DNA from: Candidatus Peribacteria bacterium
GTDB taxonomy: Bacteria; Patescibacteriota; Gracilibacteria; UBA1369; UBA12463
Length of the DNA stretch: 64,000 nucleotides
Assembly: GCA_943354965.1 (NCBI GenBank)
Contig: CALRDN010000007.1
Span: 1-64,000 of the forward strand
Direction of reading: 5' to 3'
The notes under the pieces are model-generated. The model was not told where the DNA came from and made no database searches. It worked only from the letters and a program-made list of their open reading frames with translations. How positions within the stretch are numbered: the stretch's first letter is position 1; each line of letters opens with the position of its first letter. The translations under genes and the position numbers were made by a program. This document shows positions 12,136 through 16,894 of this stretch, one piece after another.

Positions 12136-13818
12136 TTAGGCCTTCGACTTCTTCTGCTTTTTGCGACCGAATACACGTCCGAACCCGATTGACATTAATG
12201 CAAGAAGTCCAATCTCAGGACCGGTCTCAGTGAGACGAATCTTTACGGTTTTGCCCTTGCTCTCATTGCCATTTGCATCCTTGGCTGTGATTTTGTAATA
12301 GTGATATCCAGGTTCAAGTTCCGGTGATTCAAAAGCGATATTCTCCTTGGTGAGCGAAGTGAGTTGTCCATATTTTTTACCATCCAAACTTCGGTAAATA
12401 ATATATTCCAACAAATCTCCGGCAGAGTTTTTACTCTTCGTCCAAGATAATTTTGCCGTCATAGTTTTCACCGTCTTTGCGACAAAGTTCGTAACTTCTT
12501 CAGGAGGGGTAATATCTTTTTTTACGATAGTAGCTATCTCGCTTACGAAATCAAAAGTAGAATTTTTTGGTGTCATCTCTGCGCCCTTATCATCCAAAAT
12601 ACCGGTCATCACGAGAGTGTAATTCACCTTCGGTTCCATGGTAGCCGTAAGAGTAGCAACCATCTTGGTCTCATCAATTTCAAAAGAGGAAAGAGAGAAT
12701 TTTGCCTTCTTATCATCTTTTTTTGTAATAGAGAAATTTTGAGTAGGATCGGTATTCAACACAACCGGTTTCGAGAAAGTAACTTTTAGCGTTGTATCGT
12801 TGAGAACCTCAAGCTTGCTGATTTTGACGGTATCGGTACTGGCGGCTTCAGTAGAAGCAATCAATGAATTTTTTGTAACTACCTCGGCGGCAGGAGCTGC
12901 AGGATGAGCCTTGAGATAGGCCTCAAGAGTAACAGCGCTTCCCTTGAACTGACCAACATCGGATGTCCCGCTGCTAATTGGATTGCCAGCGAGGTCTTCT
13001 ACATCGCTACTTACCGTAATAATATAATCGCTATCCGGATTCTGATCAGCCGTATCTACAAGAACGACAGTACCCGTCTTATCGCTTGGATCCATGAAGG
13101 CATCATTGACGACAAGTTTTTCATAGACGAGATTATCCTGAACGGTGAATGCCTTATCAGGTTTTACAGATGGAAGTGTAACCGGCTCGGAGAATGTTAC
13201 CTTTACCTGTCCCTTGTAGACAGCAGTTGCACTCTTCACCGTTGGAGCTGTTGTGTCGGCTGCGCTAGGGGTTGTGGCAGCAACGAGATCTGTGGCTTTT
13301 GCTTCTGGAGCTACGGATGTTGTTGTCTTGCTCGTATCAACACCATTCACCGCGGCGACGACCTTGCTAAACGGTTTTACCGTGACATACGGACTATAAC
13401 TCTCACTCTCATTACCCGCTGCATCCAGCGCCGTAACAGCCATGTAATATGTTTTTCCATTTTCAAGTTTCTTCACCTCATAGGTCGTCACATTTTCAAT
13501 CTTCTTACTCTCGGCATACTTCGCCGTATTCAGCTCGGTCACCTCATCGGGACCAACATATACTTTGTATCCGGTTACAGCGGTGTCATCTTTGGCTGCG
13601 TCCCAGCTCAGAGAAACCATCCCATCGCCGATAACAGCAGTGAGTTTTTCGACATCAGTCGGAGGAGTGGTATCTTTTTTTGGAGTGGCAGCAAGTACGA
13701 CACTACCCATACTGAGTAACAAAGCCGTGCCAACAAATGAACCAATAAGAGCCTGGAGAGAACGTCGTGTCATAGGATGTTTGTTTATATGTGTATTTAT
13801 TTCTGTACATTGTACCAA
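12136..13818 (-). CDS. Surface protein with fibronectin type III and Ig-like repeats and an LTETG-type C-terminal anchor
   Basis: Two FN3-like segments (PPTDVEKLTAVIGDGMVSLSWDAAKDDTAVTGYKVY and PPEEVTNFVAKTVKTMTAKLSWTKSKN..LEYIIYRS); signal peptide; C-terminal RLTETGPEIGLLALMSIGFGRVFGRKKQKKSKA. Confidence 0.75.
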   Translation of the reverse strand: MVQCTEINTHINKHPMTRRSLQALIGSFVGTALLLSMGSVVLAATPKKDTTPPTDVEKLTAVIGDGMVSLSWDAAKDDTAVTGYKVYVGPDEVTELNTAKYAESKKIENVTTYEVKKLENGKTYYMAVTALDAAGNESESYSPYVTVKPFSKVVAAVNGVDTSKTTTSVAPEAKATDLVAATTPSAADTTAPTVKSATAVYKGQVKVTFSEPVTLPSVKPDKAFTVQDNLVYEKLVVNDAFMDPSDKTGTVVLVDTADQNPDSDYIITVSSDVEDLAGNPISSGTSDVGQFKGSAVTLEAYLKAHPAAPAAEVVTKNSLIASTEAASTDTVKISKLEVLNDTTLKVTFSKPVVLNTDPTQNFSITKKDDKKAKFSLSSFEIDETKMVATLTATMEPKVNYTLVMTGILDDKGAEMTPKNSTFDFVSEIATIVKKDITPPEEVTNFVAKTVKTMTAKLSWTKSKNSAGDLLEYIIYRSLDGKKYGQLTSLTKENIAFESPELEPGYHYYKITAKDANGNESKGKTVKIRLTETGPEIGLLALMSIGFGRVFGRKKQKKSKA

Positions 13819-13945: not shown

Positions 13946-16894
13946 ATGAAGTTACGAATTGCATCAGAAATATCACTTGGAGTACCGCGACTACTTCTCG
14001 GCATCATTACGGTAAAAAACGCGAATAATTCACGGACAAATTCAGTAATTCCGCAGCTTTTGCGTGGGACGATAGCTTCAAAGCAGAAAGAGCTTCAAAA
14101 GGTGGTAATAGAGAGCCGAGAGAGTGTGGAGCTTTGGAAATTAATTGATAAAAAACCGCATATTCTCGACGTGCTCGAGACGGTTGAGCAAAATGATTAT
14201 CTCACCTTTGGAAACTCACTGGAGGATTTGGCATTTTACTTTTCTGTACGATACGAAGTGCCAATAGCCGCCCTCGACCTCGACGAGGTCTCGGGCGACA
14301 TCGAACTCTGCCGAGCCGGTGGCAACGAGCCATTCCGACCACGTGCCTCCATCAAACTCGAACACGCAGAAGTGAATGAGGTCGTATATCGTGATCGCGC
14401 GGGAGTAGTGAGTCGCGACTGGAGCAAGTCTATTTCTCAGCGAACCGCTCTGACGAATGACACTCGAAATGCCGCATGGATTATTGAAACAATTGGAGAG
14501 GTACCTCTCGAAAAATTAAAAACCATACTCAAGGATATGGAAAAAACTATTCGCACCTACTGTGGGGGTACGGTTGATATGGCTATTATCGGAGAGACCG
14601 TTACGGAAATTGATCTCGGCGTTACAGGAACATCAGGCGTGAATGATAGCGAGTACAAGCCAGATCCACGACGTCTCGCCTTCCACCAGAAACTACTTGA
14701 AAATTTTGAAAAGATGCGCAGAGATAGTAAATCAGGGAAAAAAAGTGGAGGCATTTCACTTTTTGCGAAGGCCACCCCCGCACCAATTCTTCCCGAGCCA
14801 ATTGCCGAAAAAACATTGCCAGCCCGGGCTGAAGAAAAACAGCTGCCGGCACCGGATGAGGAGAAGGAATTACCACCACCCGATGAAGAAAAGAAGCTAC
14901 CTCCACCAGCTGAGGAGAAAGAATTACCATCCCCTGCAGAGGAAAAATTATTACCCCAAGGGAAAGTCTTGCTAGACCTCCCCGCACCTACAAAAAATGA
15001 AGCATCTCTTATCGAAATGCTTACGAAAAAATTCATCAAACCAGCATCAGCACCGGCCAATACCTCCCCAGTTCTTCTTGGCGCTCTCATTCAATCTAAC
15101 CTGAAAAAGGCTGTAGCTGCGGCATTTCCGGACGTTGCAGAGATTGCAGATTTTGAGCCGTTTGTAGAATTAGCAAAAGACGCCGCCCATGGTGATTACG
15201 CTACGAACGCTGCAATGGCCCTCAGCAAGACACTCAAAAAAGCGCCACAGCAGGTCGCAAACGCCATTATGGAGAACTTTGAAAAACCAGAATTTCTCTC
15301 AAAACTTGAGTTCGCTCAACCGGGATTTATTAATTTTACACTTTCTGCAGATTGGGTAGAGGCACAACTTCCGGAAATCATTTCAAAGAAATCGGTCTAC
15401 ATCAAGCCGGATATCGGACAGAAGCAGACGGTGCTCGTAGAGTATTCTTCTCCAAATATTGCCAAACCTCTTGGTGTACATCATCTCCTTTCGACAATTA
15501 TCGGACAGGCGCTCTATAACATTTATGACTACCTCGGTTACAAAACAGTCGCTATCAACCACATCGGCGATTGGGGCACACAGTTCGGAAAATTAACGGT
15601 CGCCTACAAACTCTGGGGCGATAAGAAAAAAGTGGAAAAAGATCCAATTGAAGAGCTTCTTCGATTGTATGTAGAGTTCCATAATGAAGTAGAAAAAGAC
15701 AAAACTCACGGCGAAGAGCTCGAGCAGCAGGCACGAGATGAGTTCAAAAAATTAGAAAATGGAGATAAGGAAAATACAAAATTGTGGCAGTGGTTTGTGG
15801 CAATGAGCCTCAAGGACGCACAGAAAACCTATGATGCCCTTGGTGGTATTCATTTTGACAAAATTCAAGGAGAGAGCTTCTACAGCGACAAAATGGATGA
15901 CATCGTCGTCGAGGGAAAAGAGAAAAAAGTTTTTGAGACCGGAGAAGAAGGCGCACTCATCGTGAAATTCGAAGATGATAAGTACACTCCATTCCTCGTA
16001 CAGAAATCTGATGGTGCTACACTCTACGGAACACGCGATCTCGCCGCTGCAAAATATCGTCTCAAAACATGGGAACCATTAAAGGTTTTGTATGTGGTCG
16101 ATGTCGCGCAATCACTGCACTTCCAGCAGTTATTTGAAACCGCCAAAATGCTTGGATGGTATGAAGATAAATCTCCTCTCGTGCATGTTTCTTTCGGACG
16201 TATGCGTTTCGAGGATGAAAAAATGAGTACGCGTAAGGGAAATATTGTGAGATTGAATGAAGTACTCCTCGAGGCGGTAGAGCGCGCGAAGAAGATCGTG
16301 GCTCAGAAGTCTCCCGACGTTCCCGAAAAAAAGCACGCCGACCTCGCGCGCATCATCGGTATCGGCTCCGTAAAATACAACATTCTCTGCCAAAATCGCT
16401 CCACCGACATCGTCTTCCAGTGGGACAAGATTCTCTCTCTCGATGGCAACAGCGCGCCGTATCTTCAGTACACTCACGCCCGCGCAAACAGCATCCTCAA
16501 AAAAGCGAACACAGAGAAACGCGCTGACCGCAAAAAATCCGAAAATCAATTCACGCTCTTCGATGCAATTGCCAATAACGAATCTCAGGAAAATGCCGCA
16601 TCAGGATCGGAAGTAAACACCGACAAGAAACCTTGTGAACTCATCCTCGCCGCTCACCTCCTCAAATTTGCCGAGGCGGTTGTCCGTGCAGCCGAGGAGT
16701 ATCGCCCAAACCTCATTACCAACTATCTCTACGAAACGGCAAAGCTCTTCAATACCTTCTACCATGAGGTACCGGTCCTCCAGGCCGAATCAGAGCACCT
16801 TCGTAACTTCCGTCTCTCGTTAACCCGTGCCACCAAGCTCATCATCAAGGAAGGCCTAGAGCTCATCGGCGTTGAGGTTCCAGAGGAGATGTAA
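13946..16894 (+). CDS. argS: Arginyl-tRNA synthetase with N-terminal B3/B4-like tRNA-editing domain and EEKxLPxP repeat linker
   Basis: C-terminal ArgRS: VEYSSPNIAKPLGVHHLLSTIIG, NHIGDWGTQFGKL, FGRMRFEDEKMSTRKGNIV, LQYTHARANSIL. N-terminal ca. 60-225 aa resembles PheT B3/B4 (COG3382-like). Confidence 0.93.
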   Translation: MKLRIASEISLGVPRLLLGIITVKNANNSRTNSVIPQLLRGTIASKQKELQKVVIESRESVELWKLIDKKPHILDVLETVEQNDYLTFGNSLEDLAFYFSVRYEVPIAALDLDEVSGDIELCRAGGNEPFRPRASIKLEHAEVNEVVYRDRAGVVSRDWSKSISQRTALTNDTRNAAWIIETIGEVPLEKLKTILKDMEKTIRTYCGGTVDMAIIGETVTEIDLGVTGTSGVNDSEYKPDPRRLAFHQKLLENFEKMRRDSKSGKKSGGISLFAKATPAPILPEPIAEKTLPARAEEKQLPAPDEEKELPPPDEEKKLPPPAEEKELPSPAEEKLLPQGKVLLDLPAPTKNEASLIEMLTKKFIKPASAPANTSPVLLGALIQSNLKKAVAAAFPDVAEIADFEPFVELAKDAAHGDYATNAAMALSKTLKKAPQQVANAIMENFEKPEFLSKLEFAQPGFINFTLSADWVEAQLPEIISKKSVYIKPDIGQKQTVLVEYSSPNIAKPLGVHHLLSTIIGQALYNIYDYLGYKTVAINHIGDWGTQFGKLTVAYKLWGDKKKVEKDPIEELLRLYVEFHNEVEKDKTHGEELEQQARDEFKKLENGDKENTKLWQWFVAMSLKDAQKTYDALGGIHFDKIQGESFYSDKMDDIVVEGKEKKVFETGEEGALIVKFEDDKYTPFLVQKSDGATLYGTRDLAAAKYRLKTWEPLKVLYVVDVAQSLHFQQLFETAKMLGWYEDKSPLVHVSFGRMRFEDEKMSTRKGNIVRLNEVLLEAVERAKKIVAQKSPDVPEKKHADLARIIGIGSVKYNILCQNRSTDIVFQWDKILSLDGNSAPYLQYTHARANSILKKANTEKRADRKKSENQFTLFDAIANNESQENAASGSEVNTDKKPCELILAAHLLKFAEAVVRAAEEYRPNLITNYLYETAKLFNTFYHEVPVLQAESEHLRNFRLSLTRATKLIIKEGLELIGVEVPEEM

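Follow-up and report, generated by a model that had tools for sequence, protein, structure and literature searches.

The open reading frame at 13946..16894 (+) of the window, the whole 64,000-nucleotide stretch of Candidatus Peribacteria DNA that was analysed, probably encodes a housekeeping-type arginyl-tRNA synthetase (ArgRS) with a built-in CtdA-like deacylase, which would perform post-transfer editing in cis. The window lies on contig C7 of a genome of 1.16 Mb (G000). The fusion of a B3/4 editing-like domain with ArgRS proposed in the initial annotation is real: a single frame of 982 amino acids runs without interruption from the ATG at 13946 to the stop at 16892-16894, it contains the Pfam B3_4 domain and all the ArgRS domains, and orthologous fusions exist in related genomes.

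Domain architecture

The B3/4 (COG3382, CtdA-like) domain occupies residues 1 to about 250 (13946..14695, + strand), as delimited with PF03483, the PDB structure 9f7e and a family profile, and its Pfam B3_4 core extends over residues 78-178 (14177-14479; E 1.4e-8). It is followed by a low-complexity linker rich in Pro, Glu and Lys (residues 261-378, 14726..15079), containing repeated EEKxLPxP units; its length varies among relatives, and its dN is 0.27 versus 0.05-0.06 in the flanking domains (window versus G003). A complete ArgRS covers residues 382-982, and Pfam finds in it the N-terminal Add1 domain (Arg_tRNA_synt_N, PF03485; residues 382-466, 15089..15343, E 4.6e-23), the class I(R) catalytic domain (tRNA-synt_1d, PF00750; residues 475-826, 15368..16423, E 8e-90) and the DALR anticodon-binding domain (DALR_1, PF05746; residues 840-982, 16463..16891, E 3.6e-28); the match to the NCBIfam argS model (TIGR00456) lies well beyond its cut-off. 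Canonical bacterial ArgRS (TIGR00456) has these same three domains, whereas the window protein bears in addition an N-terminal extension of about 380 amino acids with the editing-type domain. As for the extent given to this domain in the initial annotation (13946-15070), the peptides quoted there are found where they were placed, although 15070 marks the end of the linker and the B3/4 region stops near residue 250 (14695). The start of the open reading frame is supported by the initial methionine common to the orthologues (M-K-L-R-I or M-N-F-R-I). No convincing internal promoter was found in the region, which holds two promoter-like sites versus 4.3 in shuffled sequences.

Relationship to CtdA and PheT

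The assignment to the B3/4 / COG3382 family was correct, since the PF03483 match reaches 35.0 bits (E 1.4e-8) against a curated cut-off of 29.3. In a sequence comparison with the PDB, the nearest solved structures are CtdA (9f7e, E 6.2e-9) and the B3/4 protein 9mkl, well before PheT; with a profile built from 20 relatives of the window domain, 9f7e (E 1.2e-32) and 9mkl (about 1e-32) are matched over most of the domain, and the best PheT merely reaches E 1.3e-4. As judged by sequence, the closest characterised relative is CtdA, a tRNAArg deacylase that the initial annotation did not name. CtdA takes canavanine, a toxic mimic of arginine, off tRNAArg in vitro, acts without ArgRS and shields cells from canavanine (Hauth et al., 2023; PMC10018355). 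A canavanyl-tRNAArg deacylase as nearest relative makes biochemical sense of an ArgRS partner. CtdA and the window domain have in common the B3/4 family, the tRNA, the synthetase partner and the RxW and RT positions; on the other hand, CtdA is a standalone protein, whereas the window domain is covalently joined to ArgRS through the linker and lacks part of the WNWRQ motif; its deacylase activity is a prediction. The motif CRRWNWRQ..RT, present in both solved proteins, is replaced by SRDWSKSISQRT in the window but persists in standalone relatives, and the window's genus has WSK...QRT in place of the CtdA motif WNWR[EQ]..RT; for this reason the domain is filed as CtdA-like and not as CtdA itself. 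Residues W159, R166, T167 and E181 are retained.

The B3/B4 module of phenylalanyl-tRNA synthetase (PheRS) edits Tyr-tRNAPhe post-transfer and in cis. This module, carried by the beta subunit (PheT), belongs to the same Pfam family as the window domain and is likewise an editing module joined to a synthetase, although the synthetase class and the amino acid are different, the similarity is weak and restricted to the first half, and the conserved His of the PheT sequence PMHAFD is absent from the window, which reads PIAALD at that place. The only other B3/4 domain of the same genome sits in a normal, separate PheT (G000:C2), and HHalign aligns the two over the first half only. An origin of the N-terminal domain as a copy of PheT was rejected, CtdA being far closer. 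Residue E181 of the window presumably matches Glu334 of PheRS, a weak correspondence taken from motif reading and one short HMMER alignment; in PheRS, Glu334 recognises the hydroxyl group of tyrosine. An AlphaFold model of the N-terminal domain, for which the input was the window sequence and one relative 91% identical to it, gave a pLDDT of 33 and was discarded.

Conservation and history of the fusion

Among 89 genomes of the order, the B3/4 domain and ArgRS are found in one frame in 32, that of the window included (families f1, f5, f8 and f14), so that a survey of related ArgRS, suggested in the initial annotation, returns the same architecture in 31 further genomes. One relative, also from Candidatus Peribacteria, is 91% identical over the N-terminal domain. 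The dN/dS ratio between the window and G003 is 0.047 for the B3/4 part and 0.046 for the ArgRS part, low values which indicate that both parts are kept by selection. The recurrence of the frame in 31 further genomes, together with the dN/dS of 0.047, argues that the fusion is due neither to chance nor to mis-assembly. In seven further genomes (f14) a separate B3/4 gene directly precedes argS: the argS ATG is 2-4 nt past the B3/4 stop in five of the seven and overlaps in one, and in the remaining pair (G077) the first argS start lies further on. Such adjacent genes are what would be expected if the window frame were two genes joined through a sequencing or assembly error, but this explanation is highly improbable given the single frame in 32 genomes of four families, the low dN/dS of either half, and an ArgRS tree in which the split pairs nest within the fused group.

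That tree, built by a quick method, unites the order's fused, split and core-deleted ArgRS in a single group (support 100 by this method), within which the unfused ArgRS of f4, f11, f12 and f15 also fall; this suggests that the ArgRS fusion is old and was later lost in some families. The ArgRS fusions of f51 and f52 sit in another ArgRS lineage and look independent. In many genomes (e.g., G014, G020 and G054) the fused protein is the sole ArgRS found, from which we infer that it aminoacylates tRNAArg. The genome of the window has a second ArgRS, unfused, of 662 amino acids and from another ArgRS lineage (G000:C2:45185-47038; L004, L195); of two genomes related to it, G001, from the same genus, has only unfused-type ArgRS of that lineage, and G003 has the fused enzyme plus unfused ones. 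This looks like a replacement under way. In one further genome, G043 (L111:3386-6145), an ArgRS that is otherwise fused has one in-frame TAA within its B3/4 part, which may reflect a sequencing error, pseudogenisation or a split.

Related domains on other synthetases

The finding is broader than first noted, since surveys spanning the order, the class and the phylum, with classification by Pfam or HMMER, have revealed the same kind of domain on four other synthetases of the relatives. It lies C-terminally in LysRS-I (L114, L115, L117, L118, L152 and L175-L177), LysRS-II (L089, L167, L168, L170, L174 and L179) and MetRS (L154, L158, L160, L162-L164, L166 and L183), and N-terminally in TyrRS (L109, L116, L119, L120, L169, L172 and L180-L182). 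Some of these proteins carry further domains: a TyrRS has tandem editing-type domains, tRNA_edit (PF04073) and B3/4 (L181:2666-4924); a LysRS-II of 1119 amino acids has an HD domain, B3/4 and DUF2000 (L170:2091-5447); and in another LysRS-II a tRNA_bind domain (PF01588) precedes B3/4 (L168:3802-6543).

In a tree of 87 B3/4 domains, from which L168 and L186 (family f145) were left out, the ArgRS domains of the Peribacterales form one group (100/100); so do eight of the nine TyrRS domains (93/82), which represent six families from the order and the wider phylum; the MetRS domains cluster with four standalone ones (100/99); and the ArgRS domains of f51 and f52 cluster with CtdA (98/87). The domains of LysRS-I and LysRS-II stand together, with the exception of L089 (larger group 91/86, exact group 58/69). 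A single clade of all the fusions of the order was rejected (AU p 9e-75), and with it plain vertical inheritance within the order with swapping of partners. Given the grouping and this rejection, the domain mostly tracks the synthetase partner and not the species. A clade of all Lys fusions was rejected when two contig-cut copies were left out; with both copies included, the Lys fusions form one side of a branch with poor support (58/69), and their unity is only suggestive. Each partner has motif residues of its own: GGE[DN] ... WNWR[EQ]..RT ... E in CtdA and most standalone copies, G.FD ... D[FL]NY.D ... D in Lys-partner domains, G[AG][YH]D ... NW[VT].[KR]Q in Tyr-partner domains and GAHD ... 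CR.D..Q ... YFQ in Met-partner domains.

These groupings bear on whether the deacylase might work chiefly in trans, with free tRNAArg or other tRNAs as substrates and ArgRS as a mere carrier. CtdA functions without ArgRS (PMC10018355), the domain is a separate protein in seven relatives, and the LysRS-II fusion L089 bears an Arg/CtdA-type domain by both tree and motifs. Such a carrier role is nevertheless improbable, because the domains mostly cluster by fused synthetase and because, wherever a genome has two fused copies, each sits on a different synthetase (LysRS-II and TyrRS in G353 and G573, TyrRS and MetRS in G511). A wider proposal, tentative and with slightly less than an even chance of holding, is that one deacylase fold serves in Patescibacteria as an exchangeable proofreading module, with B3/4 domains, each adapted to Arg, Lys, Tyr or Met, fused in cis to ArgRS, both LysRS classes, TyrRS and MetRS.

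Proposed function and significance

Editing of mischarged tRNAArg in cis, one of the two roles considered in the initial annotation, is the best-supported reading. The ArgRS part would charge tRNAArg, at times with an arginine analogue such as canavanine or a chemically similar compound; the flexible linker would then bring the charged 3' end to the N-terminal B3/4 domain, which would hydrolyse the ester. Relatives have placed sister domains, each with its own motif residues, on TyrRS, MetRS and the two unrelated classes of LysRS, which would give editing domains specialised by partner and descended from CtdA-like deacylases.

The other role, in which the domain would bind tRNA or serve ArgRS structurally as an appendix devoid of hydrolysis, like other additions to aminoacyl-tRNA synthetases, bears on families in which the domain is eroded. 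In 11 genomes of f2 the fusion is kept and about 45 amino acids of the B3/4 core are missing (in the series L121-L123, L126-L131, L133 and L134, the stretch from GxEPF to RxW..RT), the fusions of f8 have no GxEPF loop, and the motif of the window is itself partly eroded. The partial loss of the CtdA motif in the window and of the core in f2 makes a tRNA-binding or structural role possible there. As an account of the domain in general it is unlikely, since its nearest relative, CtdA, is a deacylase acting alone (PMC10018355), since W159, R166, T167 and E181 persist in the window, and since an appendix does not predict partner-specific motifs or the extra tRNA_edit domain of L181. Even under editing in cis, deacylation cannot be the sole role in every family, because the domains without GxEPF loop (f8) or without core (f2) are still fused. 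An ancestral editing domain whose activity was kept, changed or lost according to the family is a reading that fits the evidence for as well as against editing.

No editing domain was known in ArgRS according to the CtdA paper (PMC10018355), and ArgRS and TyrRS are not among the synthetases with proofreading in a 2024 review (PMC11415595). In the open-access literature searched, no paper was found that describes a fusion of B3/4 with ArgRS, TyrRS, LysRS or MetRS, an absence that is no proof of novelty. The ArgRS and TyrRS fusions thus suggest built-in proofreading where reviews list none; if the proposal is true, they would be the first cases of an editing domain in ArgRS and in TyrRS, and specificity switching of the editing pocket could be read from sequence. 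Such proofreading could explain accurate translation in genome-reduced bacteria that probably rely on scavenged amino acids. Moreover, the fused, split, core-deleted and other-partner forms offer matched natural variants for studying the evolution of editing specificity, and the fusions predict substrates for uncharacterised B3/4 proteins.

Neighbouring gene

Upstream of the fused gene, and unrelated to the fusion, a divergent open reading frame of 560 amino acids (12136-13818, - strand) looks by eye like that of a secreted protein with fibronectin-type repeats.
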